A stretch of DNA of 64,000 nt from Chrysophaeum taylorii (Eukaryota > Sar > Pelagophyceae > Pelagomonadales > Pelagomonadaceae). Position 1 is the stretch's first letter. The number at the start of each line of letters is the position of its first letter. The stretch spans positions 1-64,000 of the forward strand of contig JAQMWT010000388.1 of NCBI GenBank assembly GCA_029834535.1, read 5' to 3'. A program made the translations under genes and the position numbers. Positions 7,481 through 51,852 of this stretch are shown here, one piece after another. The notes under the pieces are model-generated. The model worked only from the letters and a program-made list of their open reading frames with translations. It was not told the DNA's origin and made no database searches.

Positions 7481-10400
7481 GTTGAAACACTTGGCGTCCG
7501 TCGTGCCACCAGACACGATGGCTTTATTAGTACTCGATCTGCACTACTCTATGACCAAGGATTTTCACTTGAGCGGCGAGGCTTTGCCGTCCGCGTTGAG
7601 TCCTGCAGACCGACCGTTTGATTAATATTTTGCAAATTGATAAAACCACCCTTCGTCACGTACAAGTTCCGCTGTTAAACACGCGCACACGTGTCGTAAG
7701 ATGGGTATCGACTGATGATCTCCAAGATCGCACCAAATGGAAACCTCCAGAGGTGCCGTTGATTCCGCCTGCAACAGAGAGCCGGGGACGTCTCATGCTT
7801 CTTCTGCTGCCCCCGACAACCAAATTTGGACGTTCCGCCAGATCCTGAGCGAGATCGGGAACCGAAGATTAAGAGCGAACCGAGCGTTCGTGTCAACGGC
7901 GAGAAGATCAACAAAAGCCACCCGGAAGTGAGACTAAAATACAAGAAAAAGTTCGATGTGCCATGGAAAGATGCACCGCGCGATGCTGAGGGTGCACCGC
8001 TGCCGCAAACTCCCGAGCATGTCGAGGATAACCCCGTTACGAAAGTGGAGATTCCTACGAAGGAAGAAGCTGACAAGGTTGTTCAGGAGCTTGGAATTCC
8101 TGACAATCCGCACTTAGATGACGATGCGAAACTGATGCTCCGTCACTGTGTGCAATATTCTTGGGCCTTCTTCGACCCGATTATGAGACCTGTGGACTCA
8201 ACTCCTGTGTCTCTACGATTCAAAGACGCGAATCCGCGACCGATTAAGATGACGCCCGACAGACTGACGCCTGCGAAGCTCGATTGTCTCCGCAAGCAGA
8301 TCAGTGAGTGGTGTCGGGATGGTGTCATTCGCCCGGCCAACTCACCTCGGGGCTTTCCTGTGTTGATGCTTCCCAAGAAGGGAGCTGAGATAGGAACGTC
8401 AAATGCGTTCCGTGCTGCAGTTGACTTACGTCAGCTCAACGATCAACTGGTCAATGACAGTTGGCCGAACATTCGACAAGACGATGCTTTAGCTTTTCTC
8501 GCCATGCGACGCTGGCGGACATGCATTGATATTAGATGGGGATACCACAACCTTCGTCTGGATCCGGCAGCGCAAGACGCTGTCACGATGGTTAGCCCAC
8601 TTGGCGCTCATAGTTTCTTGCGATTACCTCGGGGTGTGAAGACGGCCGGAGCTCTTTCCTGCAAGCAAATGGCGAGCGACCTTTCGAAATGGATGTATCG
8701 AGACTTGGTTGCGTTTGTTGACGATATTATGATGGGATCCGATGATCTTCATCGACACTTACAAGTTTTGATCGAAGTTATGTGTCATTTGGCACAGAGA
8801 GGGCACAGCGGTCGAACCGCGAAGTTCCACCTTCTCAATGATGATATAGAATTTATGGGACACATTTCGACCCCAGAGGGCTTGAAGCCGAATCCGAAGA
8901 CGCTGGAAGCACTGCAGAAGATGCCGATTCCAGGTACTTTACCGAATACTTATCCGAAGACCCAGATACGATCTTTCATCGGCATGAGCAATTACTGCCG
9001 GCGATATGTGAAAGGCTACTCGAAGATCGTGGAGCCGCCGAGACGGCTATGTCTCGAAGGCGTAAAGTTCGAGTGGACGCCCGAGTGTCAAAAGGCTAGG
9101 GATACGATCATTGAAGCTTTGGTTGATTCCAGAGGAGTCTACTACCCCGATTATGATCTGCCCTTTCAGATCCGATCCGACGCTTCCAAGGATGGACTTG
9201 GAGCATATCTCTTCCAGATTGTCGAAGTCAAGGACGATGCAGGCAGAGTGACTCGAGAAGAACGAATTATTGAATACTGGAGCCGAGCCGTGCCGAAGGA
9301 GATGCGCAATTACGAGCCCCGTCGGCTGGAGCTGCTGGCCGTTATCCTTTCTCTGGTGCACTTTCGAGCCTACATCGAAGGGCACCGGACTGTTTTAGAG
9401 ACCGATCACCGAAATTTGGCCTTTTAACGTAAGGCGACGCACTCGTCTGGGCAGCTTGCTCGTTGGGCGATGCGCCTCACCAACTTCGACCCTGAACTTG
9501 GTTAAAAGCCGGGAAAGTCACCGGGAATGAGTATCCCTGACTGTCTCTCCCGCAATCCGATAGATCATGCCATCGAGACTGACGAGTTTGGAGAGCCTTT
9601 GAACCACGCTTATTTGGTGTTCCAAGAGCTTCCCCGACCTGTCGATGACCAAGGAATTCCCGCCTCCGGCTGCCACTTCATTCTGTCGTTTGTTACGACC
9701 GAACTGCCGGAAGACGAGGAAGAAGATCATCAAAAGGATCCCATGAGATTGGCTACGTCTCACGCTACGAGACAACGTCGGAAGAACCGCGTGCGAGATG
9801 AGCCGCAGGTCGTCAAGGACGCAGCCGCTTACAAGGATTATATCGATAAAATTCCCGATAATATGACGCTCTCTGAGATCGCACGTGAGCAAGAATCTGA
9901 TGCTACTTGCGAGGATATTCGCGACCGAATGGCCCAAGGTCAGACGCCGCGACGTTCCCGAGCGAACGAACGATATGAAGTTGTGAAAGACATTCTTCAC
10001 CGCGTTTCTGCTGATTTGCACCCGATGATTGTGGCCCCTGCCACGTTGCGCAAGCGCATTATTCGACTATACCATGACACTCCGGTTAACGGTGGTCATG
10101 TGGGACGTCACAGTACTGTCCGGGCTATCCAGGGACGATTTTGGTGGCCCCATATGTCGAACGAAGTCGGAGTCTTCATTGCTGAATGTTTAGTTTGCCA
10201 GAAAGCTCGTACGCCTGAGCCGAAACGAGCTGGACTCTTGCAACAGCCTGTCTACGATGGTGATGGCGCTGTTCTGTGCATGGATTTATTTGGGCCTTTG
10301 CCCAGCGCTGGTCCCGAGACGTATCTTCTAGTGTTTTTCGATCCGTTCTCGCACTTCTTGATTTTGGATGTTTTGAACGATAAGACTGCTGAATCCGTTC

Positions 10401-16712: not shown

Positions 16713-19700
16713 TGGTAGCAGGTTCGTCTCGATCGAACCTGTGCCTGACTTCACGGTGACTCCTCATCGGCTTCAGTTCATTGCTACGTGTTCGGTTCGT
16801 TGTCGTCTAACATGTCCTCGATCGAAATTAAGGACAGTAAACTTTCTCAAAACTTGATGCTTTCAGTGGTGAGCGACATCTTTTCCACCAATGGACACGT
16901 CGTCTTGAAAACATGATCATTTCCACCGGCGATCGCATTGTTTTGACCAACGAAACTTGGATCAGCATCACAACCTCTGGCTGCTCTGAAGAAGAATTTG
17001 GCGTCAAGCAGCAACGTTGGTACTCTGCATTGTTTATGGCCCTCCCGATGCATGATACTGATCGTGCGGATATCCGTGAAAACCGCGATATGAACTTCAC
17101 GCGGCTTTACAAGCGCATTACCGATGTCCACATGGGCCATGGGGATCGCGTAGCTCAGTCTGCAATTGCTTCACTGCATTCACTGGTGTGCAATAATCTC
17201 GATGAACTTGAGTCCTTTCTTAACAAGTTCATCAGCGGTGTTCAAGTTGCTCGGCATCATCGAGATTTCCCTGACGCTCTTGCATTGCAATTGCTTCAAA
17301 CCAAAATCCCGGACTCCATATTGTCTAAGGATCTCATTTCACTTGACCCTAAACTGCGCACATATGATGGTTTCGTTGATCGTCTCAACAGCAAAGTTTT
17401 CGATCATCTCCAGACCAAGTCTCCGCTTGTCAACGTTGCTATACGTGAGGGTCCCCGCCATCGCGATCGTTGTGACTTTTGTGGTCGCACCAACCATCCT
17501 ACTGCTAAATGCTTTCATCGTCTCAATGCTTTACGCTCCCATCCTCGTTCCCGCCCTCGCCCACCTTTCCGTTCCAGGCCTCAGCCTCCATTTTCCCGTG
17601 GCTCTCCTAATCCCAACAACCAAGTCCTTTCTTCTACAAATGCCCTTACCGCTCTGCTCACCGCCCGTGAGCGCGATTATCTTCACTTCAACAAACTACG
17701 CCTCGTTGTCTACGATACAGGTGCCAACGTCAATCTCTTCAATTCCCCTGCTGGCTTTACTGACCTTGACAACACTCAACAGCACTCAATCCATTCCGCT
17801 CTCGGCACTGGCTCTGTTTCTGGTTCTGGCACTGCTCACTTAACGTTCCCTTCCATTGGTCCTCTTGACAATCGTGGTCTTCCTTCTCCAGCACCCACTA
17901 TTTCCGCCCCTCATGGCATCCATATCGCGCTCCCGCATACGCTCATCTCTCCTGGTCTTGGTGACAAACGGATTCTTTCTGATCATGCCCTTGAGCAAGT
18001 TGGTTACGATGGTCATACGATCCAGAATGTTGGCCCTACTCATCCTCAACGAATCTTACGTCACCGCCAGACGCATCATGTCATTCCTCTGCTTCGTCGC
18101 GGTGGTCTTCTCTTTATCGTCTGTTGGATCGGCAATACGACCGCTGCGCCCTACGCGGACTTTGTTTCCCCATTTGTGGCATTTTCTTCTTGCCCTCGCG
18201 TACATGCCCCTTGTGCGTTTCCCGTTGCGTCTCAACGCACTCAACTCACCTACGACATTTGGCATGCTCGTCTTGGTCATTATAGTCCTACTTATATTCG
18301 GCGTTTGTCTTCTCTCGCTGTTGGTGCACCGCTCTTCCCAAGTTCCGCGTCTCTTTCTTTTTGTTCTGCTTGTGCTTTAGGTAAAATGCATGCTGCGCTA
18401 GTTGGCCATCGTAAACCACGTGAATCCACTCCCAGCTCTCTTCCTGCACACGAAATTTTGTCCCGCCCACGTGCCGTTGCACGCGGATCTCATGTTCACC
18501 GGTGCCCCTTCTTTCATTTACCAAGACCGTGCCATCCTTACGTTTGTCGATGATCATGCGCGCCGCCGCACACGTTACTTTGCTCCTCGACACGATGCAC
18601 TCACGAACGCTCGTCAACTCGAACTTTTCCTGTGTACTGTGGTTCGACACTTTGGCTATCGTATTGCCCTCATCTACACATATCGTGACAAGTCCCTAAT
18701 GGGCCAATTCGAAACCTTCTTTTTGGGCAACAACATCGCCATCAAACGGGCTCCTGCTGCTCAGTCCAAAAATTCACAGGCGCACGCTTTTTCTGGTGTT
18801 GTGGAACGCTCCCATCGCGCAACTGCTGATATTACTCGAACTCTTTTGGTGCATGCACACCGTCCACTTGATTTTTGGCGTTGGGCCATGGAAACGGCTG
18901 ACTTCATCTCCGAGCGAATGCCAAACGCCTCCAACCCTGGTTACCTGACGCCATATGAAATGCTTCACAAAACCTTGCCCCGCGTCGTTTTTCTTCGTGT
19001 TTGGGGCTGCCCTGCTGCTATTCTCACTGGCGACAAATGGCCTACCAAAGCTATTACTGGCATCTTCGTTGGGTATCCCTCTGCTGGACCTGGTTATCGT
19101 ATCCTTCTTCAACGCGCCACCGGTCCCGCCATTCACACTTCCATCGATGTCGTTTTCGACGAGAATTTTGCTATGCGTACATCCCTGCCCTCCCAACCCC
19201 TTCCTCCTCCCCTTGTGGATTCTCGTTTGCCCGATTTGTTCTATTATGACCCTCGTTTGTCTTCCGCTGTTGCTCCCTTGTCTCCTGTTTTTGATGCTCA
19301 GGAGCCGGCCTTATAGGGACTGATCACCCCAGAAACAACACCACAACCATCAGCGAACAATGCGAAAAGTGCACCATCACGTCGAGCCAAACGGAGCCGA
19401 CCGCGCAAACGACCAAAGCGCCTATGACGCTGAAACAGAACCTACTCGCGAAACCATGAACTCACATTCTAGCGTTTGTCCACAGCGCAATGTCGATTCT
19501 GTTTCCTCCTGTCACTTCCTGTATGTCACTTATTCTAGCTTTCGTTTGCTAGTTCATTATGTCTTCCTTCCCCTTTGTCTAGCTCATACCCTTGTTGATC
19601 CCCAATCTGTCCACGCTTATTACTCTGCTTCCGAAGAAGCATCTCAATATTCTTACATTGATGACGGCACTATCACTTCCACTCATTTACGCGAAGCTTT

Positions 19701-21398
19701 AGCTCATACAAATCCTGAACGCCCTGGCTGGTTACAAGCCATCGCCAAAGAATATCATTCCCTCGGTCAGCTCGGTTGCTGGGATGTCGTTCGCGTTCCT
19801 TCTACTTTTTCTGGCAACATCTGCACTTTAAAGTGGGTCCTCCGCAAGAAGTATGAATCTGGCCGTTTCAAATCTTACAAGGCCCGCCTTGTTGTCCACA
19901 CACGGACACGCGGTTACACCCAGGTTCACGGCATTGATTATCACGATACGTATTCTCCGGTTGCCAACATTGTCACCATTCGGTTCTTTCTCACCTTTGT
20001 TGCTGTTCATGACTGGGATTTGCACAAGTTAGATGTCAGCTCCGCTTTTATCCAAGCTCCCATTGACGAAGACATCTATGTCTGGCCACCCGAAGGCTAT
20101 GCTCCTCGCCAACCCCCAGATGGTTCCAAAATCGTTTACAAGCTCCGTCGCTCTTGGTATGGTTGCAAACAAGCTTGTCGCAATTGGTGGCTTTTTTTGG
20201 AACGCTTCCTTGTCAATGATTGTGGCTTCGTCCGCGGATCTGGTGACACTTGCAGTTACAAGCTCTTGCTTAATTCTACTGTCGTTCTACGTCTTGTTCT
20301 TGTCGTTGATGATCTTCTTGTGGCGCACCCTCGTCATTGCCTTGGCCATTGCCAAGCCTTCTTCCTCCGTTTCAAAGACTTCACTGATGTCAACGAGCTC
20401 GATCTTCACACTTACGTTGGTCTCCGCATTACGCGTGATCGCGCACGTCGCACGCTCGCTATCGACCAGTCACATGCTATCCGTGAAATCCTCACCGAAC
20501 ATCGCTTCATCAACAGTAAACCAGAATTGACACCCGCTCCCAAAGGTCTTCTTCATCTTTCGGCGGCTGATTGTCCTGCACCTGGCTCCCCCGATCACGT
20601 CTTCATGGCACGCATCCATTCGTCGTATTGTCGGTTGTGTCTTGTTTATTTCTGTTATGACTCGCCCTGATATCACTTGGTCCGTCAATCAGTGTGCGCA
20701 TTTTACACACAACCCTGGTAAACCCCACTTGCACGCTTTATCTCATACCCTCCGTTATCTCAATGGTACTCAAGATCTTGCCCTTGTTCTTGGTCGCGAT
20801 TCTACCTTTCGTCTCTGTGGTTATTCGACTCCAGCTGGGCCGACGACCCGGATGACCGCCACTCCACCACTGGCTATTGTTTTCTGCTTGGTGGCTCTAT
20901 GACCTCCTACTGCTCACGATCGCAGTACCTCCTCGCCCGCTCCTCTTTTGAAGCCGAATTGCTCGCTCTTTACGCCGCTACTGCTGAGCTCTCTTGGCTT
21001 CTCAAACTTTTTGACGACTTGATCTCCCTCGTCACACGGTACCTATGTATGTCGATAACAGCAACACCGTCACCCAAGTCCGTCTCCAATGTCTCACGAG
21101 GCGCACCCGCCACATTGACATTCGGTTTTACAGCACCGCCGAATATCATCGCAATCACATCATTGATCTCCAACACATTCCCCGCCTTGACAATCTCAGC
21201 GATATCTTCACCCGTAATACGGAAGCTACTCCCTTCCTCCGGCTTCGTGCTCGTTACCTCACCTCGTAACTTCGCAAGACATCTCCGGTCTTCTTCTGCC
21301 ACAATGCCTCTCATGGCGTCTTTTTTCACCTTCAAGCTTCTCCTATGTGAGCGCCTCACTTACCCCTTTTCCCCCTTTTCTTTCTTTTCCAGCACCCG

Positions 21399-25705: not shown

Positions 25706-28700
25706 GGACTCCCCTGGTAAGAATTCGAGCTGCCCCAGCGAGGTGCTAGCGCGAGGAGCGCGGCTTCGCCTTACGAGCATCTCGTGAACGAATCTTCTGG
25801 TAAACGCGGGTGATGATCGGTTCAGGAACTCGACCACTGCGTAAAGTAAACTTGGGGATCAACACATCAATCTCGTGCGGAGCGAAATCCGTGACACAAG
25901 GAGTTGTGTTGGAGGAAATTCGGGACTTGTCGGTGAAACTTCGACCTTCAACGTCCTTGAACTCGGGCTTGAGCTTGCGGTGCGAAAGGTGAGAGGTCGG
26001 CTTGAAATAAGCGACATCATCGTTCGGACCCAAATCGGAATAGAAATGTAGAGCAACACGATCATTTTGGTAATCGTAAGGCTCGTAAACTTCAGCAACA
26101 TAAATCTTCTTGCGCCAATCAGAGCGCTTCCGGTCAGGAATCCGGAAAACAACAAACTTACCGTGCTGATAATCATCACGGAAGGTTTCTTCGGGTTTGC
26201 GGATGGTTTGATCAACGATCGGAGGTACCATCACAGGCGTGATCTGACTAACATGAACACGTCGTTCTTCGGGCGGAGAGTCGAGAGACTCAATCCTATA
26301 GGTGACCGGGGAGAGGCGTTCCTTGATAATAAACGGCCCTCGCCATTCCGGTCGAAGTTTGTTCTGAAGGAAAGGAATGTAGAGCAAAACGTGCGATCCT
26401 TCCTTGTATTCAACATCAACATGATCAGCATTGTAAGCCAATCGTTGTTTCTTCAAAGCTTTATCACGAGCCTCGCGGACGATCTTCGTATAATATTTCA
26501 ATCGTTCACGAGTCTCGGCGACTGCATCAGAGCGAGTCTTCGGCAATAATCGTGTATCAAAATCCATGAGCGTGTAGTCAGTCGGTAGCATCGGCTGACG
26601 GTTCAGGCGCAGCATAAAGGGAGAAATCTGCGTGCCTGGAATAAACTTGCGGTTGTAGCAAAACGCAATATAATGAGCAAAGTCAGGCCAATCCGTGATG
26701 TTCCGGCCTTGAAGGCAAGCACGGAGGAAGGCCTTGATAAATCGGTTGACACGCTCAGCCGGGTTCGACTGGGCATGATAAGGAATCGTAGTTTTGTATC
26801 GTGTGTTAAAGAGATGGCAAAACTCGCGCATCAACTTGTTCACGAACTTTTTACCGTTGTCGGTACGAATCATCTGGGGCAAGTAGCCCTTGAGGAGGAT
26901 GTTAATGACAAAAGACTCGAGGACAGACTCAGCAGTCTTATCGTTCAAAACATCCAGAATCAAGAAATGCGAGAACGGATCAAAAAATACTAGAAGATAC
27001 GTCTCGGGACCAGCGCTGGGCAAGGGTCCAAATAAATCCATGCAAAGAACAGCACCATCACCATCGTAGACGGGCTGCTGCAAGAGTCCAGCTCGTTTCG
27101 GCTCAGGCGTACGAGCTTTCTGGCAAACTAAACATTCAGCAATGAAGACTCCAACTTCGTTCGACATGTGAGGCCACCAAAATCGTTCTTGGATAGCCTG
27201 GACGGTACTGTGACGTCCCATATGACCACCGTTAACCGGAGTGTCATGGTAGAGTCGAATAATGCGCTTGCGCAACGTAGCAGGTGCTACAATCATCGGG
27301 TGCAAATCAGCAGAAATGCGGTAAAGAACATCTTTAACGACTTCGAATCGTTCGTTCTCTCGGGAACGTCGCGGCGTCTGACCTTGGGCCATTCGGTAGC
27401 GAATATCCTCGCAAGTAGCATCAGATTCTTGCTCACGTGCGATCTCAGCGAGCGTCATATTATCGGGTATCTTATCGATATAATCTTTGTAAGCGGCTGC
27501 GTCCTTGAAGATCTGTGGCTCATCGCGCGCACGGTTCTTCCGACGTTGTCTCGTAGCGTGAGACGTAGCCAATTTCATCGGATCCTTTTCAGGGTCTTCG
27601 TCTCCGTCTTCCGGCAGTTCGGTCGTAATAAACGACATTATGAAGTGGCAGCCAGAGACGGGAATTCCTCGGTCATCAACAGGTCGGGGAAGCTCTTGGA
27701 ACACCAAATAAGCGTGGTTCAAAGGTTCTCCAAACTCGTCAGTCTCGATGACATGATCAATCGGGTTGCGGGAGAGACAGTCAGGGATACTCATTCCCGG
27801 TGACTTTCCCGGCTTGTAACCAAGTTCAGGGTCAAAATTGGCGAGGCGCATCGCCCAACGAGCAAGCTGCCCAGACGAGTGCGTCGCCTTACGTAAAAAC
27901 GTCAAATTTCGGTGATCGGTCTCCAAAACAGTTCGGTGCCCTTCGATGTAGGCTCGAAAGTGCTCTAGAGAAAGTATAACTGCCAGCAGCTCTAGCCGAC
28001 GGGGCTCATAATTCCGCATCTCCTTCGGCACAGCTCGGCTCCAGTATTCAATCACTCGTTCTTCTCGAGTCACTCTTCCGGCATCGTCCTTGACTTCGAC
28101 AATCTGGAAGAGATATGCTCCAAGTCCATCCTTGGAAGCATCGGATCGGATCTGAAAAGGCAGATCATAATCGGCGTGGTAGACTCCACGGGAATCAACC
28201 AAAGCTTCAATAATCGTATCCCAAGCTTTCTGACACTCGGGCGTCCACTCGAACTTTACACCTTCGAGGCATAATCGTCTCAACGGTTCCACAATCTTCG
28301 AGTAGCCCTTCACATATCGCCGGCAGTAATTACTCATGCCGATGAAAGAGCGTATCTGGGTCTTCGGGGAAGTATTCGGTAAAGTACCTGGAATCGGCAT
28401 CTTCTGCAGTGCTTCCAGCGTCTTCGGATTCGGCTTCAAGCCTTCTGGGGTAGAAATGTGTCCCAGAAATTCTATATCATCCTTGAGAAGGTGGAACTTC
28501 GCGGTTCGACCGCTGTACCCTCTCTGTGCCAAATGACACATCACTTCGATCAAAACTTGTAAATGTCGATGAAGATCGTCGGATCCCATCATAATATCGT
28601 CAACAAACGCAACCAAGTCTTGATACATCCATTTCGAAAGGTCGCTCGCCATTTGCTTGCAGAAAAGAGCTCCGGCCGTCTTCACACCTAGAGGTAATCG

Positions 28701-29849
28701 CAAGAAACTATGAGCGCCAAGTGGGCTAACCATCGTGACAGCGTCCTGCGCTGCCGGATCCAGACGAAGGTTGTGGTATCCCCATCTAATATCGATGCAT
28801 GTCCGCCATCGTCTCATAGCGAGAAAAGCTAAAGCATCATCTTGTTGAATGTTCGGCCAACTGTCATTGACCAATTGATCGTTGAGCTGACGTAAGTCAA
28901 CTGCAGCACGGAACGCGTTTGACGTTCCAATCTCAGCTCCTTTCTTCGGAAGCATCAACACAGGAAAGCCCCAAGGTGAGTTGGCCGGACGAATGACTCC
29001 ATCCCGGCACCACTCGCTGATCTGCTTGCGGAGACAATCGAGCTTCGCAGGCGTCAATCGGTAGGGCGTCATCTTAATCGGTCGCGGATTCGCGTCTTTG
29101 AATCGTAGAGACACAGGAGGTGAGTCCACAGGTCTCATAATCGGGTCGAAAAAGGCCCAAGAATATTGCACACAGTGACGGAGCATCAGTTTCGCCTCGT
29201 CATCTAAGTGCGGATTGTCAGGAATTCCCAGCTCCTGAACAACCTTGTCAACTTCTTCCTTCGTAGGAATTTGAACTTTCATTGCTTCGTTGTCCTTGAC
29301 ATGCTCAGGAGTTTGCGGCAGCGGTGCACCCTCAGCATCGCGCGGCGCATCTTTCCATGGCACATCGAACTTTTCTCGTATTTTAGTCTCACTTCCGGGT
29401 GGCTTTTGTTGATCCTCTCGCCTTTGACACGAACACTCGGCTCGCTCTTAATCTTCGGTTCCCGATCTCGCTCAGGATCTGGCGGAACGTCCAAATTTGG
29501 TTGTCGGGGGGGGGGGGCAGCAGAAGAAGCATGAGACGTCCCCGGCTCATCTGTTGCAGGCGGAATCAACGGTACCTCTGGAGGTTTCCATTTGGTGCGA
29601 TCTTGGAGATCATCAGTCGACACCCATCTTACGACACGTGTGCGCGTGTTTAACAGCGGAACTTGTACGTGACGAAGGGTGGTTTCATCAATTTGCAAAT
29701 AATAATCAAACGGTCGGTCTGCAGGACTCAACGCTGACGGCAAAGCTTCGCCGCTCAGGTGAAATTCCTTGGTCACAGAGTTGTGCAGATCGAGTACTAA
29801 TAAGGCCATCGTGGCTGGTGGCACGACGGACGCCAAGTGTTTCAACGAG

Positions 29850-39661: not shown

Positions 39662-40198
39662 CCCCGCCGTCTTCTATATTGTAAAGGTCGATCGATCGAT
39701 CCGATTGATCGTATCGCCGATCGATCGATCGATCAGGCACCACCACCACATGCGCGCGCAATCGATGGCGCCGTAAAAAAGCTCGATGCGGCACTTTCCT
39801 TCTAATGCCCGGACGACGACGAGAGGATTGGTGACGAGGGGTCCGACGACGAGGGGCCCAACGGCGAGGGGTCCTCCCTTCTCGAAGATCCCTTGTCGAA
39901 GACCAATGGCGCTAAGAGGTCGCGCTTCACGAAGATGAAGGGGTGGGGTAGAGGATAGTACTACCCACGCGCGTTCGAGCGCGTCCTCCTCTGTTTCGCA
40001 CACACCCCCTCTCAGCAGTCGATCGATCCTTTTTGAACGCAACCCCGCCCCCAAAACGTGGTCTACCAACGGACGACCAAAGATGTGTGTGAGTCGACGT
40101 CATAAAAACTGAAAAAGTGCTAACGATCTTCCTTTCTTTAGGGGACGATGGATCCATCCTTTTCGCACGCAAGAGCGCCCTAACGGCTCGTCAAACGA
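39662..40198. other. Intergenic region; GATC-rich palindromic tract
   Basis: 39688-39735 contains two runs of the self-complementary tetramer CGAT/GATC around a short spacer, able to fold into a long hairpin. 39830-39880 has three GACGAGGGGTCC-like units. No coding region is supported. A pyrimidine-rich TTCCTTTCTTTAG at 40129-40141 looks like a splice acceptor, so a 5' untranslated intron of the next gene is possible. Confidence 0.4.
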
Positions 40199-42988
40199 AT
40201 GTTCGTCGATCCTCTCGCTTCGGACGATGTCCGAACGCTGCCTCCAATACTCGAAAGCAAACAGCGGAGCTCGACCGCAACAATGGGCGTAGCGCTTTCA
40301 GCGAAGGCAATGGTCGCGGGTGCCCCCAGACGATCGGTCTCTTATTCGCCGATACGAGGCGAGCTTGCGACGATGCGCTTCGACTTGCCACCCGACGCCG
40401 CGGCGTCTACCAACAATAACCGACCGTCGTCGAGCCGTGCCTTCAAAGGAGCGCGCGTGACATCGAAGAGCACTACGAAACACAAGGCAGCGATTGCGAA
40501 TCCGCAAGACTGGGCCGGAGACCTCAAGCCGAACCCAGCGAATACCTCGCGCAGAGCGGCAGGCAAGAGCACGGGCGACGACACGACCAAGAACGACGAG
40601 AAGCCGAAGAGGGCTCGGGCGACGTCGTTTGCCTCGGCCGACGACGCGCTGGCAGAGAGCGTGAAGCGAATTCGCAACTACACCAAATTGCTCGGACAGC
40701 AGTCGCTGCACCATTTTATCATCTGGAAGGGAAAGCGACTGAGCTCGACTCCGGAGTTCGCAGCGTTTCGACGGAGGTACGCGATCCATTGGTCGAACGT
40801 TAACCAAATCATCGGTCTGCTCGAGGACTTGTGCCTAAAGAACGGCATCCCGTTGGCACTCGTAGATGGCTCGATCGTAAATGCCTTGTCAAAATGTGAC
40901 TTGCATTGCCTAAAGCTCGCCGATCTGCAGTCGTGCGTACACAATATCGACAACCTCGACTCCCTCGAGCTGCCTGCCACGAGCGTCGCGCGCAGTCGCG
41001 AACCCGAGGAGCCGACACGTTCGGCCGTAGTGATTCAGGCCGCGGTTCGACGGGCCTTGGCGCGTATTACCGTCCGTGGGATCGCGCAAGGCCTGGGAGC
41101 CGCGATCCGACTGCAATCAAGCTGGCGGCGGTTCGCGGCGGAGCGCGCTGTGCTCAAAGGCCTCGCCGCGTTGCGCGCTGCGCGTGACATCGCATGGCAA
41201 GAGCTTCGTGCGCGTCTTCGCGCGCACGCCACCTCGTTCGCTCCGGGGAAGTCGCGCGTGGAAATCCACGTGCCAAGTGTTGGCTTCACCGAGCGCGCGA
41301 GACTCCGGACGCCACACTTTGCCGCGACCCAAGCCATCCAAGTTGCGCGGCTGTGTTTGGCCGTCGATCCTGCGGTTCACGTCGTTTATGTCTCCCCGTT
41401 TGCGCTTCCAGACGAGCTCGTCGAGTACTATCGTCGCATCCTCGAACTGGGCGCCAAGAGCGGAGCCGAGCCCGGCACTTACGGCACTCGTCGAGACCAG
41501 GTGGCGCACGCTGTCGTGTCCTCGGACGCCACCAGCGCCCGTGCGGCAGGAGGTAGCTTCACGATAGTCGTTCCAGAATTCGTCGCGTGCTGCCCCGAGC
41601 ACACAACGCTCGCCAGCCTCGCCTTGTACTCGCCCGCGTGTTGCAGACGATTGCGAAAGCTCGCCGAACGTGGGTTTGCGGTGATTGTCCCTGCGGGGCC
41701 GGTCGGGTGGGCCGAGCGCTCGCTGGCGCTTGCGCTCGACGTACCGCTTCTCGCGCCAGATCCCATGAAAGCCGGCATCTTCGCATCGCGCAGCGGCTCG
41801 AAACGCGTTTTGCACGATGCCGACGTCAACATCCCGATCGGTGCTCACGACATCTACGACTACGAGGACTTTCTGGTCGCACTGGCCAAGCTCATCGCAA
41901 GTCATCTTGAAATCAAACGCTGGCTCTTTTGGGTCGATGTCGACGCCTCAGCACCTTCGGGGGTCGCTTACCTCGACGTTGAGACGCTCGACGTCGTTGG
42001 CGAACTCCGCGACGAGTTCCACAAGCTCGTCGTCCTCGACCGCCATAAGGGCGAGACTACGTGGTGCCACCCCGAAGTTCAAGTGCTGGCGCGCACCAAG
42101 GTTCTCCGTGCTCTCAGGGCCTCGCTCGCCAAGCATGTCGCGTGTGCCACCGAATGGTCAACCTTCATAGCCGACGTTCGCCACTACGGCGGCGTCATAG
42201 AGGCTGAGCCCCGCGATGTCATTGGCAGGCAAGCCATCCACGTCTTCATCAGACCAGACGGCGCCATTAGCGTCATCGCACCTCAGGAAATTTTGATCAA
42301 CCACACCTACGACCGCGTTGCCGCTGTCTTCCCGCTGTTCAGTGTCCCCTCGGATGCTCTCGCCGCTGCCGCGACCGCCGTCGCGCGCAAGCTCTATGCG
42401 CAAGAGGTCGTCGGACACTTTACGCTGCATTTCGTCGCCTATCGGTCGCGCGAAGAGATTGGCGCCCTCCGTCTCTGGGCGACCGAACTCGAGCTCGGCA
42501 TGAACCCCTTCCTCGTCGGACACCTCCTCCATCGGACCGTCTCCGAGCCACGCCTCAACGACGGCGACGACGACGTTGTCAGTGATTGTGCCTATTTTCT
42601 CGCGCCGCAAATATACCACGAGGGCCTCGTCTCGATGAAGTTTGCTTCATTTTTCAAGATCTGCCGCTTGCACGGAATGTCCTTCAACGTCCGCCACCGA
42701 ACGGGACCCATGTTTCTCCTCGTCGACTCCCTCGCATCTGGTTTAATTGGGGCCCTCGTCCAGGGCCCCCATAGGCTTGACGTCCTGATGTCAGCATTCA
42801 AGCTCATTGCATTCCTCAAAAAGCACGTCACGACGGCGCATATATTATACCGAGACGGCGTTCCCGACGTGCTCAACCTCGCCGAGCTCGTCGTCACCGT
42901 GACGACCGCGCTCCGGACCGAGGCCGCCTCGTCGGATCACAGCACTGCCCTCGTCAACATGACCCTCGAGCGCGAAGTTGTGAGGTAA
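40199..42988 (+). CDS. IQCH-like protein (IQ motifs, ATP-grasp-like C-terminal part)
   Basis: An uninterrupted frame of 929 residues. The N-terminal 150 residues are Ser/Thr/Ala-rich and look disordered. One or two IQ-type calmodulin-binding motifs lie at about residues 277-315 (VVIQAAVRRALARI, AIRLQSSWRRFA). The rest matches the layout I know from the IQCH family: HFAATQAIQVARL, VPE.V.CCPEHTTLASLALYSP, SGSKRVLHDADVNIPIGAHDIYDYEDF, then EIKRWLFWVDVDASAPSGVAYLD and GVIEAEP. This resembles an ATP-grasp fold with the SGSKR and RWLFK-like positions kept in form. In animals IQCH is a sperm and ciliary protein, so a flagellar role is likely here. The length is near the animal protein. An ATG at 40283 is an alternative start. 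Confidence 0.75.
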   Translation: MFVDPLASDDVRTLPPILESKQRSSTATMGVALSAKAMVAGAPRRSVSYSPIRGELATMRFDLPPDAAASTNNNRPSSSRAFKGARVTSKSTTKHKAAIANPQDWAGDLKPNPANTSRRAAGKSTGDDTTKNDEKPKRARATSFASADDALAESVKRIRNYTKLLGQQSLHHFIIWKGKRLSSTPEFAAFRRRYAIHWSNVNQIIGLLEDLCLKNGIPLALVDGSIVNALSKCDLHCLKLADLQSCVHNIDNLDSLELPATSVARSREPEEPTRSAVVIQAAVRRALARITVRGIAQGLGAAIRLQSSWRRFAAERAVLKGLAALRAARDIAWQELRARLRAHATSFAPGKSRVEIHVPSVGFTERARLRTPHFAATQAIQVARLCLAVDPAVHVVYVSPFALPDELVEYYRRILELGAKSGAEPGTYGTRRDQVAHAVVSSDATSARAAGGSFTIVVPEFVACCPEHTTLASLALYSPACCRRLRKLAERGFAVIVPAGPVGWAERSLALALDVPLLAPDPMKAGIFASRSGSKRVLHDADVNIPIGAHDIYDYEDFLVALAKLIASHLEIKRWLFWVDVDASAPSGVAYLDVETLDVVGELRDEFHKLVVLDRHKGETTWCHPEVQVLARTKVLRALRASLAKHVACATEWSTFIADVRHYGGVIEAEPRDVIGRQAIHVFIRPDGAISVIAPQEILINHTYDRVAAVFPLFSVPSDALAAAATAVARKLYAQEVVGHFTLHFVAYRSREEIGALRLWATELELGMNPFLVGHLLHRTVSEPRLNDGDDDVVSDCAYFLAPQIYHEGLVSMKFASFFKICRLHGMSFNVRHRTGPMFLLVDSLASGLIGALVQGPHRLDVLMSAFKLIAFLKKHVTTAHILYRDGVPDVLNLAELVVTVTTALRTEAASSDHSTALVNMTLEREVVR

Positions 42989-46636: not shown

Positions 46637-49600
46637 TTACGTGTGCGAGGCCTGCTCAGGTTCAACTTGCATGGCCAAAGCAGCTCGCTGCCGGAATTTC
46701 ACGAGGTAGCACGGGTAGCATTGATGATCGTTGTAGGTTACGAAGATGCGAGGGTTGCTTGTGCTGTCGACTGTGGTATCGTACAGCTCAAGGGTGTCCG
46801 GGTTGCGGATGTCGGGAGCGAGGGCCCCGTTTCTCCCAACACATGCATGTCCCACCACGATGCGGCAGACGAACACGTGCTGCGTCCCTTCTTCGTCAGG
46901 GGTCGAGTATTTTGGCATGCACGAGTACCCCGAATCGCGAGCAAAGTAAACCCCCTTCCCCAGTCGAACGGCGTGCTTGCCACAGAAACTTCGGTTGAAC
47001 CTGCGTCAATGAGACCCACATGATGAGGAGTGTGAATTACGCTGAGCGTTAAGAACCGGACACCGCACGACGAACCCTTGCTGTACGATCTTCCTGGCAA
47101 CGCTGCCTGTTGTGCCATGAAACACGGGGTAGACGACAAATTTTCCGTCAGCCACGTTATTGTTGACGTCTTGCGAAACATTTTCGCGTGTCAGGACTAC
47201 GGCCTGTTTCATCATGAAGCACTGCCACATGGAGAGATTCTGCACGCGCTCGACTGACAGCACCTCGATTGTGCGAATATTGAAGTGTGAAACGACCTCT
47301 ATCCTCTCCAGATCCGCGTCCTCAAGGAGCATCAGCTCGGCCTTCCGGCGATCGGTCACGTCAGACCACCTACACGCGCACCGAACTTTGTCGCGCACGA
47401 CACACTACTCTGGTTCTGTGGCAACGCACGAGTTGGGCGGTCGAAGCAGTTGCATCACTTCGTTGGTTCCCGAGCGTGATTTTCGCAAGAGATTGTGGCC
47501 AGCTTTTTTGACACAGCGGGTAGGAAACCAGCCAGCGGAATTTGTGTGGAAAGCATGATTCTCGTCCCCGGAACTCAAGGGGGAGTCCAAAATTTTTATT
47601 CCGTAGCACCTACTCGCCAAAAACATTGACACAAAGCAACCTCGTGCCGCAACGCACCAATCGCCATGAGGGTCCGAATAGGTGCGGACGACGCGTATGA
47701 ACATGCCGACGCGAACTGGTAGCGCACCCTGACCTTGGAGCTCGCAAGGCAACGCAGACGGGAAATTCAACAGTCTCAATGTCGCGCCGCATTCTGGTTT
47801 ATCACGCGGTGGAAGCTCTCCCAACTCGGGACAATCCGGTTCTTTTCGCTCTTCCCCTTCGTCAGACATCATCTTATCGTCGAATGAGAAATGTCTGCCA
47901 AGGTCCCCAGGCTCGAAAGGCTGTATGGCTTCGAAGATATCGACATTCGTACTTTGGATCATTCTCAGCGTTCGACGGAAATTCGCCTTCATGCGATGTC
48001 GAGACACCACAAAAACTATCAGAAACATGCCAAGAATCGCCGCACACAGCATCACGACAACGTAGCTGTAGGTATACGTTCGCTTGTCATCGTTCGTCTG
48101 TCCCGTTGGACCGTCGGCGGGATAGCGAGTAGATCCTCCGGGAAAGTAGATGGACACGTCGTTAAACTCTAAAGTATAAGAAGCAGAGACGCTTGACCCG
48201 ACGATTACATACTCTGCTTGCAAACCTGCGTCGAAACGAGAAACGTTGGTAATTATTCAATTCACGAATGATACTTATTTTCATCGGGTGGACCCGTGCA
48301 AGCGTTTGATTTCAACACTGTTGGAGACTCTCAAGAATAACCACGAGTTGTCTTTGCGGTTCGTAGCTGTTCCAAAGCGCGCGCCTCGCAGCAGACGACG
48401 ATTCCATCGCCTCGTTTATTTGCAAATTCAACAAACTGAATTTGCCTAATCGATCGCCAGAATCCGGATGTAACTGCACCGTGCCCGAAGAACCCTCGAA
48501 GGTCTGGTTGAGGATCATCGCGTACGTCTCACTTGCCAAAAGTCTGGAATTCGTGTTGAGCTCCTGCGCAGCTATCGCCTTTGCAAAGATAACAATTGCG
48601 TCCACACAAAACATTGAATAGTCATGCGAAGTCGTGAAATCACCGTCGACGTCACAGTAAGGCGCCGAGGAGGCGTCATCGCCATCTAAGATAGTAGCAT
48701 TGGTGCTTTCGACTCGGCTATTACACGCGTCCACACTCATGACTTGGCGCCAAGAATCCAAGTAATCAGACACAACTGTTTCTTCGCCGTAGCTTGGAGC
48801 GTATTGGATGAAACCTGTAGTCAGCATGATCAGCATCGATCGTGGTTTATCAACGCGAGGTGGCATCTTACCAAGAGACCCTTCTTGACCTTTGACCGCG
48901 TCGATGTCGACGTTGTGATAGTCGTCGACGAGCGATGCAGTTTGTGGCAAGTTCGTAATCAACGCGTAGTCGCTCCCCCAGATTCGCCTTTGTCTGTACA
49001 TTTCGGCGAAGATCTCCTGCTGCACGTAAGTCGCAAGATATATTATCCGTGCGTCCAAAGCCTCGAGAACGTCCAAAATCTCAGTAACGTTGAACCCCGA
49101 ACGCGACACCGTAATCCCCAACGTCTCCCCTGCCCCGTTACAGTTGCCACCCAGGCATATGCCACTACCAAGAAACGTCACGAAGTCGACGCGCGAACTG
49201 ATCGCGTCGATGAAAGATTGGGCTGAGCTTCTTGCCCTGCACGCGAGAGGCGAGCGTTTCGCGCTTACAAGCATCACAAAGCACTCACCACAAACTATCG
49301 TCGTGAACCACAGCAACTCGACGCCATCCATAGTGGTCCACGAGGCTGGAAACGGCCTTGCCCACTTCACTTTCTGGACTCGACAAGCGGGCAACATGTG
49401 GATAGTAGGATTCAGAAGAAATCTCGGTTGCTGTCGACGAGGCCGAGAGAACGACGAAATTGGTCGCGTCGAACGCCACTCCGTAAGATCTCAGATCGTT
49501 CGTGAGGTTCGCCCGAGCATCGACGCTCGAAACATCGGCCACGTCGTCCGAACAAAATGCGAAGACACCGTGGATTTTCGGATTCGTGCGCAGCATCTCG

Positions 49601-51771
49601 AGGAGCGCACCGTAAGCTCGACCTTCGGAACACCCGACCTCCGCGTATTGCGGACGAAGGAAACCGTGTGGTAGTACGTCGCCAAACAAGTCCGTTCCGT
49701 GAGCGTTGACCAGGTCGATTGTATGACTCAGGTGATCGCATTCTTCTGTGTTAAGGATTCGGCACAGTATCGCGACGTGGATCTCGAGCACATCAGGTAG
49801 TTGTTCGATTCGCTGCTGAACTGAGGTATTAATCCTCGACATTGTTCCATTCCCAATATTATAGGCCAGTCGTGGGTCCAACGCAGTGTCCGCATCGGCG
49901 TGTAGAGCGCTCAAATACGCGGCGGTTACATCGTTCAGCGAAGCTCCGATCTCAGCAATAGGCAACTGGCTTCCGTCTAAATCTAGCGTGTCGTAGAACG
50001 CATTCACAGTCGATTTCTGCGACGCAAAAGTGTAGGACGCGTCGTCTCGCACTAACTCGCCATTCACGCGCAACGTGCCGTCGGCAAGCAGTACGCTTTG
50101 TGATCTATAATACCACTGAAACTGAACCGAGGAGGAAAACTGCAAGAAACACCAAGGGATTGTCGCGTTGTCGGCGACTTTCAAGGTCGAGAAGAAGCAT
50201 TCCTGGATCATGGCGCGTAGACTCGCCCCCGTAGAAAAAAAAAGTAAAACATCGTCGGCAAAGCCGATGCCAGGAACCAAATTGAGCAAGTCCGCTCTTG
50301 TTACTGGACCAGGAGGTATGGAGGACCGCAGGCTTTCGGCGTCGACGAAAGCAACGTCGACCTCGCCGTACCAGCGCAACGCATCCGCCACAAAATCACC
50401 AGCAGTGCACTCTGCGAGAGCACAACCGCACGTTGGTTTCGTCTCGTGAACAGTGGTTGTCACAACACACGACCCAGGTTGTATCGGAGCACCGTTTAAC
50501 TCAGCAGCCAGCCAACCGAATACGTCGTCCCGCAGAGACGCGTCCACCTGTTCCTTAAGTGCGTCGATATCGTCGCGGATCTCCTCGTTTTCGGCGGTGC
50601 CGCAGTCCATAATCACGTCTTCTATCATCACCTGCGTCACGATCGATCTCGAGCGGCCGTCTGTGCCTCGGAGATGATCCGAAAAATCGAGCGAAACGTT
50701 CGTCATGCCGGCGCCTCTCCTTTTCCTGCCGAAAGTGGTCACGTAGGTCGTGCCACCCGCCCAGTTCCGCAACTTCGAATATCTCTGCGACTCGGAGATT
50801 ACCACAGAATCCAAATATGCGCCAAGCTCATACCCGCTATCGACAACGATGAGGTCGATGTCAAGGAAATTTGAAACTATGGCCGCGAGAGCCTCGTACG
50901 AGCGAACGACCACGTTTTCGGGCGTGTCGGGCCACAGCTCCTGCTGTTGCTGCGTCAGCAGTTCGTTGATGTCATCGGAAGAAATCATATGCAACGCAAG
51001 CATGATAAAGTTGGGGCGGCCCGTCGGCAAGTTGACCAAATCGTGCAGTGCTACCTCGAGCGACCTTCGTAACGAGAGAACCCTCGGGACGTAATACCTT
51101 GAAATCGGTGACGCATCTATCAACGAGAGGAACGCCATGGTGCGCCCGTGCTCGAGGGAATAGACCGCGTAGTTGGTCACGAGCAGCCCCAAATGCGGAT
51201 CCGCGGTGACGTTTAGATTTGTGACGACGGTTAGGTTTGGCTGCGATTGCTCGAGATACGACGCGACTATCTCGCCGCCGGATGGCTCGATGTGACGCGT
51301 CTTCCAACCGGCCATCATGTCGGGAAGACTCAACGAGCGCGCCACGTACCCCATCTCGGAGAAGAGGCGGGCCGGTACCGAGACGCCGAATTCCGGAAAG
51401 AAGGACCCCGAACCGTAGAAGAAGCCGCCGACGTCGACGGGCACGACGTCGCGCGCCGAGTTCGCCCGTGCCATTTCCAACACGCCGGCGAGGCGCGCTG
51501 CGCCCCCGTAACACTCGCACGGCGACGCGTTGTACCTTGCCGCGCTGCACTCCTCCCCGCTAGGTTGTGCTGTTGGATACATTGCTCCATTGACGTTCGA
51601 CGTGATGAGCAACTCGATTCCCCAGGGAGCCGTCTTCTCGAGCGTCGTCGCCACCACCGCCGGGAGCGCGCCCCCAAGAAGAAGAAGAAGAAGAAGAAGA
51701 GGAAGTATCGGGGTGTCGAGAAGCGACCGTCCCCCCCACCAAACGTAAGACGGGAATGACAACTGCGCCAT
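46637..51771 (-). CDS. Receptor-like membrane protein: 5'-nucleotidase-like, PBP1/ANF-type ectodomain and intracellular PARP domain
   Basis: The model has five exons and 1616 residues. Introns are 49237-49288 (52 bp), 48226-48328 (103 bp, donor uncertain), 47405-47458 (54 bp, tentative; it removes an in-frame TAG) and 47001-47075 (75 bp). A signal peptide with a Leu run is followed by: a 5'-nucleotidase-like domain (about 40-570; C-terminal part AECTAGDFVADALRWYG and SLRSSIPPGPVTRADLLNLV); a PBP1/ANF-type ligand-binding domain (about 620-1120; YYPHVARLSSPESEVG, HYGWRRVAVVHDDSLW); one membrane helix (about 1184-1207) followed by RHRMK; a linker; and a PARP catalytic domain (about 1425-1595; VERVQNLSMW, FHGTTG, GKGVYFARDSGYS, YDTTVDS, YNDHQCYP). 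The His and Tyr of the ART triad are present; the usual Glu position appears to be Cys, as expected for a mono-ADP-ribosyltransferase or an inactive form. The nucleotidase metal ligands are missing. The ligand is unknown. It is divergent to the U-box gene. Confidence 0.75.
51678..51702. repeat. (GAA)n tract coding the Leu run of the signal peptide
   Basis: Trinucleotide repeat that reads as eight consecutive Leu codons on the minus strand in the receptor leader; its length would directly set the hydrophobicity of the signal peptide. Confidence 0.8.
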
Positions 51772-51775
51772 CACC

Positions 51776-51776
<1 letters not shown>

Positions 51777-51852
<76 letters not shown>
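51777..51852. repeat. (GCAA)19 microsatellite between divergent genes
   Basis: Nineteen perfect GCAA units. It is free of stops on both strands: it reads as a Leu-Ala-Cys-Leu repeat upstream of the receptor start on the minus strand, and as a Ser-Lys-Gln-Ala repeat upstream of the U-box protein on the plus strand. In-frame ATGs exist on both outer sides, so either protein could start before the repeat, although the inner starts were preferred. Confidence 0.95.

Follow-up and report, generated by a model that had tools for sequence, protein, structure and literature searches.

Putative Receptor Mono-ADP-Ribosyltransferases with Swapped Sensor Domains in the Alga Chrysophaeum taylorii

Results

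The gene considered here lies on the minus strand (51771 -> 46637) of a 64,000-nucleotide stretch of Chrysophaeum taylorii DNA, referred to below as the window (contig JAQMWT010000388.1, positions 1 to 64,000; contig C388 in our labels). The protein predicted from it begins with a signal peptide and a decayed 5'-nucleotidase; an ANF/PBP1 ligand-binding domain and a single membrane helix come next, and the chain ends in an SH3-like stretch followed by an ADP-ribosyltransferase domain of PARP14/15 type. A first-pass annotation, made from the letters of the DNA, had described a receptor with an ANF-type ectodomain, a single membrane helix and a PARP domain inside the cell; its coordinates, strand and order of parts are correct according to Pfam on the spliced model and hydropathy, and the domain search that it proposed placed both ANF_receptor (58.9 bits) and PARP (PF00644, 62.0 bits, cut-off 26.7) above cut-off. 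However, it missed a complete pseudo-5'-nucleotidase in the ectodomain, included neither the paralogs' WWE domains nor the relatives of PstS type described below, and undercounted the exons.

The exon model was obtained with a hidden Markov model (HMM) of eight paralogs with uninterrupted frames, containing no window row, which ranked frame-keeping GT-AG pairs; each exon was then scanned for extra in-frame introns. Seven exons are favoured over five, with a coding length of 4740 nt including the stop codon, giving a protein of 1579 aa. Exon 1 (49289..51771) carries the signal peptide, the pseudo-5'-nucleotidase and the first ANF part (aa 1-828), exon 2 (48872..49236) continues the ANF domain and exon 3 (48329..48814) holds its C-terminal part. 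The membrane helix, the juxtamembrane part and the beginning of the SH3-like stretch are in exon 4 (47658..48225), the rest of that stretch with a GWFP motif in exon 5 (47430..47609), the N-terminal part of PARP with its HGT motif in exon 6 (47076..47369), and the C-terminal part of PARP with the stop codon in exon 7 (46637..47000), all on the minus strand.

Five-exon models that keep the frame, as first proposed, do exist (4866-4890 nt), but the exact figure of 4851 coding bases could not be reproduced, and such models read through two in-frame introns of 57 and 48 nt. The first of these, intron 2 (48871-48815, GTAAGA..CTACAG), costs 24.5 bits against the paralog HMM when read through (1020.6 vs 1045.1), and the second, intron 4 (47657-47610, donor GTGCGT), brings a gain of 13.6 bits. 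An alternative for intron 4 at 47630-47574 (57 nt, donor GTCAAT) had the top score, +14.2, which is 0.6 bits better, yet 47657-47610 was chosen because of its GTGCGT donor and because it restores GDWCYG where the paralogs have GEWAFG. Introns 1, 3, 5 and 6 correspond to breaks that stop or shift the frame, each of which can be closed by a GT-AG intron under the same HMM. The donors of introns 1-6 are GTGAGT, GTAAGA, GTCTCC, GTGCGT, GTGCGT and GTTCGT, the acceptors of all six end in CAG or TAG, and intron 5 (47429-47370) contains the TAG at 47405-47407.

In the spliced protein, 5_nucleotid_C (57.0 bits) also exceeds its cut-off, and exon by exon the Pfam scores are 58.6 bits for 5_nucleotid_C, 36.3 and 16.2 for ANF_receptor, and 17.5 and 44.7 for PARP. 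The 5_nucleotid_C domain itself (50020..50442, 61.6 bits) forms the pseudo-5'-nucleotidase together with an upstream half, and the ANF_receptor (PBP type 1 ligand-binding) domain occupies 48420..49794, introns included and the start approximate. The membrane helix (48005..48064, aa 1166-1185) has a Kyte-Doolittle mean of 3.19 and is followed by SRHRMK; the one other hydrophobic segment of like strength is the N-terminal signal peptide. The SH3-like stretch (47504..47728, limits approximate, intron 4 inside) was placed by alignment to the paralogs only, and Pfam reports nothing for it in the spliced model. In the whole spliced protein there is no Pfam match at E <= 0.1 to a kinase-homology or guanylate cyclase domain, and no 7tm_3 match, the protein having one helix only.

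The PARP catalytic domain (46691..47272, aa 1394-1562, with intron 6 at 47075-47001 inside) is closest in sequence to PARP15/14 (PARP15 match 2.9e-31), and alignment to PARP15 and to the paralogs located its triad at H1445, Y1477 and I1544. We take this H-Y-(not E) triad to be of the mono-ADP-ribosyltransferase type. Since the membrane helix is N-terminal to PARP, the protein is not of the tail-anchored PARP16 type.

The 5'-nucleotidase module is complete in the ectodomain, but the metal-site motifs (FNDV, GD, GNHD/GNHE, GGHDHH), whose residues we assume to be the metal ligands, are absent in the window. The comparison was made by eye with C366, an ordinary 5'-nucleotidase of this genome, whose MAFFT row was not well in register in the N-terminal half. 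The motifs are also absent in those paralogs whose aligned part covers the region, apart from the first Asp, which is kept on C242; the alignment row of the C379 gene began too late for the metal-site region. As the metal-site motifs are lost, the module is probably not an enzyme. Structure comparison of AlphaFold models of paralogs supported an outer N-terminal module with a 5'-nucleotidase fold, the ANF/PBP1 fold, and a PARP fold closest to PARP15/14.

Profile searches covered the whole 70.8-Mb genome (697 contigs), in which the PARP family occurs at 21 places and ANF_receptor at 34, some of the latter being two per gene. Fourteen of the 21 PARP places are genes of receptor type: the window, C125, C129, C242, C370, C379, three on C323, three on C439, C389 and C673. 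The other seven are PARP1-like genes on C360 and C552, and those on C495, C474 (two), C480 and C122; neither of the two frames scanned at C480 held a receptor part. The PARP1-like protein of C360 (L020, 2430-4862 minus) combines BRCT, WWE, WGR, PARP_reg and PARP in one chain, where WWE beside WGR looked unusual.

On six contigs, eight genes have ANF and PARP together within a single unbroken frame, which is 1646 to 2010 aa long: one each on C125, C129, C242, C370 and C379, and a tandem of three on C323. ANF and PARP are above cut-off in all eight, 5_nucleotid_C in six (below it in two C323 copies) and WWE in seven (below it in C379). A strong membrane helix stands between ANF and the cytosolic part in every one of them, with an extra, weaker hydrophobic segment (1.97) within the ANF region of C323b and C323c, and the PARP triad is kept in the window protein and in all eight. 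ANF and PARP were thus not joined by chance or by mis-joining, because these eight paralogs carry both in one open frame. A mis-assembly, or two separate genes of which one is a receptor that stops close to the membrane helix and the other a PARP gene unrelated to it, would fit the frame changes and the TAG that the window has between the helix and PARP, and the first-pass annotation had named such a case, with the first gene ending at that TAG, as what would overturn its claim. We consider this extremely improbable, and for the family we reject it: besides the eight single-frame paralogs, a relative on C673 is in one frame throughout, and another on C389 has everything but the PARP end in frame.

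Purifying selection acts in the paralog pairs that were measured; in the C129/C125 pair the PARP stretch has the lowest ratio of nonsynonymous to synonymous substitution rates (dN/dS), 0.114. The three C323 genes (L010-L012) are closely similar and lie within about 28 kb, and this tandem is a recent duplication.

Further genes appear, from their sequences, to be relatives of the receptor-PARP family. On C149, 5_nucleotid_C, ANF, WWE and the start of PARP are in one frame, with the rest of PARP beyond a break; on C606 (L047, 640-2001 minus), 5_nucleotid_C, ANF and WWE accompany a PARP without the HGT motif; and on C439 (L021-L023) three consecutive receptor-PARP copies are all broken up over several frames, by introns or decay. 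Separately, a 700-aa frame at C322:374601-375416 (L044) contains WWE and weakly matches the tail of the C673 protein (E 3.9e-10), with no Pfam PARP match. Twenty-six pattern matches to the receptor tail came from one scan of viral contigs, and none was confirmed as a viral relative.

The contigs C379 and C370 also carry weak light-harvesting matches (best E 2.3e-10 and 1.2e-5), which points to the receptor-PARP contigs belonging to the alga's own genome. The light-harvesting family has 84 matches genome-wide, and one of its proteins, compared with the PDB, matched first the LHCI of entry 9vfj and then fucoxanthin and violaxanthin types.

On C673 (L018, 2174-5944 minus) and C389 (L017, 2179-6258 minus), two PstS copies in tandem are joined to a tail of membrane helix, WWE, SH3-like stretch and PARP, in one frame on C673 and with the last PARP part out of frame on C389. 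Both exceed the cut-off of 205 of the PstS equivalog model TIGR00975 (264.1 bits for C673, 266.8 for C389), and fall below the cut-off of 339 of the E. coli-type PstS model NF008171 (170.6 and 181.3 bits); against PstS in the PDB, the C673 protein gave 6.4e-37. As read by eye, GAGAS, GSG or GST, DFxGSD and RxDxSGTT, presumably the phosphate-site motifs of PstS, are retained in the first PstS copy and missing from the second. The two proteins are candidate phosphate receptors.

In a midpoint-rooted tree built from 19 of the genome's PARP domains, the window PARP groups with those of C673 and C389 (support 100/99), apart from the paralogs that share the window's ectodomain; six inner branches of the tree are weak and four rows are long-branched, none of them in this group. 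The last PARP exon of the window is 63% identical to C673 over 104 aa. Since the window PARP groups with the PstS types and not with the paralogs of the same ectodomain, the tree shows that sensors have been swapped: either the outer part was exchanged on a shared PARP lineage, or PARP was exchanged on a shared outer part.

The same sensors also occur without PARP. Three 7tm_3 matches exist genome-wide (C695, C12 and C154). In the one on C695 (L048, 3-2600 plus, 109.0 bits; upstream PstS match at C695:155929-156942), a PstS ectodomain is fused to a class C seven-helix domain; this protein is a candidate phosphate G-protein-coupled receptor (GPCR). At C675:312214-314022 and C148:49480-50995 (L049, L050), a 5'-nucleotidase/ANF part and a cysteine-rich stretch precede several membrane helices. 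Among the other ANF loci outside PARP matches, five of seven long frames carry Ephrin_rec_like, four of them above cut-off. That the PARP fusions share sensors with 7tm_3 or multi-helix proteins is the strongest reason to regard these fusions as receptors.

Elsewhere in the window, an AGCA tetranucleotide tandem repeat at about 51776-51852, directly upstream of the start codon, sits between the receptor gene and a plus-strand armadillo-like frame. Frames resembling long terminal repeat (LTR) retrotransposons are found at 7763-9424 (+), 25749-29447 (-), 16841-18550 (+) and 19324-20667 (+), and carry reverse transcriptase, RNase H and integrase, as well as gag_pre-integrs and RVT_2. An open reading frame at 40184-42985 (+) has an IQCH-like ATP-grasp domain (135.1 bits).

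Discussion

We think it probable that the window gene and its kin encode single-pass receptor mono-ADP-ribosyltransferases, with the flytrap outside and PARP in the cytosol. Topology, ligand, dimerisation, activity and regulation are predicted from sequence, and the mechanism with the best support would be one in which a signal from outside is coupled to ADP-ribosylation. The N-terminal part, with its signal peptide, pseudo-5'-nucleotidase and PBP1/ANF Venus-flytrap, would be outside the cytosol and bind a small ligand; the flytrap would close or rearrange, probably as part of a dimer in the manner of receptor guanylyl cyclases and class C GPCRs, and the signal would cross the one membrane helix to the cytosolic SH3-like stretch and the PARP14/15-like domain. 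With nicotinamide adenine dinucleotide (NAD+), PARP would then mono-ADP-ribosylate itself or neighbouring proteins, and the WWE domains of the paralogs, which can read ADP-ribose, may read the product. Extracellular phosphate would be the most testable ligand for the family, because two related receptors have PstS ectodomains, and it is to these PstS types that the sequence basis for a phosphate ligand is confined. That the window receptor binds a nucleotide-like or phosphorus-containing compound is our guess from the pseudo-5'-nucleotidase.

Several observations weigh against this reading. The 5'-nucleotidase superpositions are loose (best row: root-mean-square deviation 13.5, TM by target 0.49), with an identity of 12-17% among the 5'-nucleotidase rows of the structure comparison, and the AlphaFold models are middling, with mean predicted local distance difference test (pLDDT) values of 68.1 and 56.6, for paralogs only, from alignments of 10 and 8 rows. 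In the young C323b/C323c pair, the dN/dS of PARP (0.332 vs 0.331 for the whole) indicates no extra constraint. The C606 copy has lost the catalytic His, so not every member can be active, and its PARP is likely dead as an enzyme. The window copy has no WWE by Pfam, in its exons or in the spliced protein, unlike its paralogs, and two of its six donors are unusual (GTCTCC of intron 3 and GTTCGT of intron 6), both introns resting on homology; it could be a drifting copy.

The last points bear on whether the window copy is decaying, its frame breaks being lesions that were read as introns and the paralogs being the functional genes, as the lack of such breaks in the eight paralogs might suggest. 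It seems very unlikely, as the frame-breaking introns are each closed by a GT-AG intron under an HMM without a window row, the triad is intact, and the last PARP exon keeps its identity to C673. The loss on C606 would also suit real receptors in which the PARP fold serves for binding or as a scaffold, without catalysis, and WWE or SH3-like partners make the output. PARP13 is a catalytically inactive PARP. RCD1/SRO are inactive as well, according to excerpts of two papers (PMC2964712, PMC4245714). We find such a role quite unlikely, given the triad kept in the window and in the eight single-frame paralogs and the PARP stretch having the lowest dN/dS in C129/C125, although this is not so in the C323b/C323c pair.

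A location of the same protein in an internal compartment (endoplasmic reticulum (ER), vacuole or phosphorus store), with the ectodomain facing the lumen and PARP reporting the state of the compartment, has also been considered. PARP16 is held to report on ER state from the ER membrane, and the sequence holds nothing that separates plasma membrane from endomembrane. The excerpt of PMC4245714 describes PARP16 as having a C-terminal transmembrane region and as a predicted mono-ADP-ribosyltransferase. Set against this are the PstS ectodomain joined to 7tm_3 on C695 and the 5'-nucleotidase/ANF parts before several helices on C675 and C148. Receptors with 7tm_3 or such multi-helix parts are usually at the cell surface, and we regard an internal location as unlikely.

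Returning to the single-pass receptor with its ectodomain outside the cell, the nearest known systems are the receptor guanylyl cyclases (ANF/natriuretic peptide receptors), which have the same PBP1/ANF ectodomain, one helix and a cytosolic enzyme, and with which the activation logic is, by analogy, likely shared. The window protein differs from them in ending in PARP, in the extra pseudo-5'-nucleotidase outside and in that no kinase-homology or cyclase domain was found. In class C GPCRs (GABA-B, mGlu) the same flytrap ectodomain is followed by a seven-helix output part where the window protein has a single helix and an enzyme, and here the PstS sensor occurs both on C695 with 7tm_3 and in the PARP receptors of C673 and C389. 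The ecto-5'-nucleotidases (CD73, UshA, NadN) share the fold of the outer N-terminal module, whereas the window family is without the metal-site motifs; and the C673 and C389 proteins match the PstS family, but in them PstS is attached to a receptor-like tail rather than working for a transporter.

On the cytosolic side, most of what is known about PARPs concerns DNA damage, RNA and antiviral functions. The clade 3 mono-ADP-ribosyltransferases (PARP14/15/10/12) have the closest catalytic domain, that of PARP15/14, and share an H-Y-hydrophobic triad and WWE, the last as in our paralogs, but here the PARP domain follows a signal peptide, an ectodomain and a membrane helix; to our knowledge, the human clade 3 PARPs are not receptors. 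In the excerpt of PMC4245714, membrane segments are given for PARP16, where the helix is C-terminal to PARP, unlike in the window protein, for a sponge clade 3 protein with an N-terminal helix and then PARP, for clade 3 PARPs of Rhizaria and for a rice PARP. Among the additions to the Rhizaria PARPs, that excerpt lists H_lectin and transmembrane domains, possibly in different proteins, and H_lectin, known by mention only, comes closest to hinting at a binding domain on the outside; the excerpt names no ANF, 5'-nucleotidase or PstS ectodomain on PARPs (PMC4245714). The word "transmembrane" does not occur in the excerpt of PMC2964712. The first-pass annotation knew of no receptor ending in PARP, and none is described among the literature matches listed, a scope outside of which subscription papers and preprints lie.

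Receptor enzymes are classed by their output as kinase, phosphatase or guanylyl cyclase, and ADP-ribosylation would add one. The protein would be a variant of the single-pass enzyme-linked receptor and, if classed by the chemistry of its output, would represent a new class of receptor, described here from one genome. A partly tandem paralogous family with exchangeable sensors would make this a standing signalling system rather than a freak fusion. The widest proposal, which we regard as an even call, is a class of receptor ADP-ribosyltransferases in which a membrane-WWE-SH3-like-PARP cassette carries swapped, unrelated, bacterial-type nutrient sensors (pseudo-5'-nucleotidase/PBP1 or tandem PstS), and through which phosphate or organic phosphorus outside the cell would act directly on NAD+-dependent cytosolic signalling in an alga that is probably of the chlorophyll-c type. 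If this is true, the plasma-membrane phosphate sensor sought in such algae would have candidates in the PstS types.

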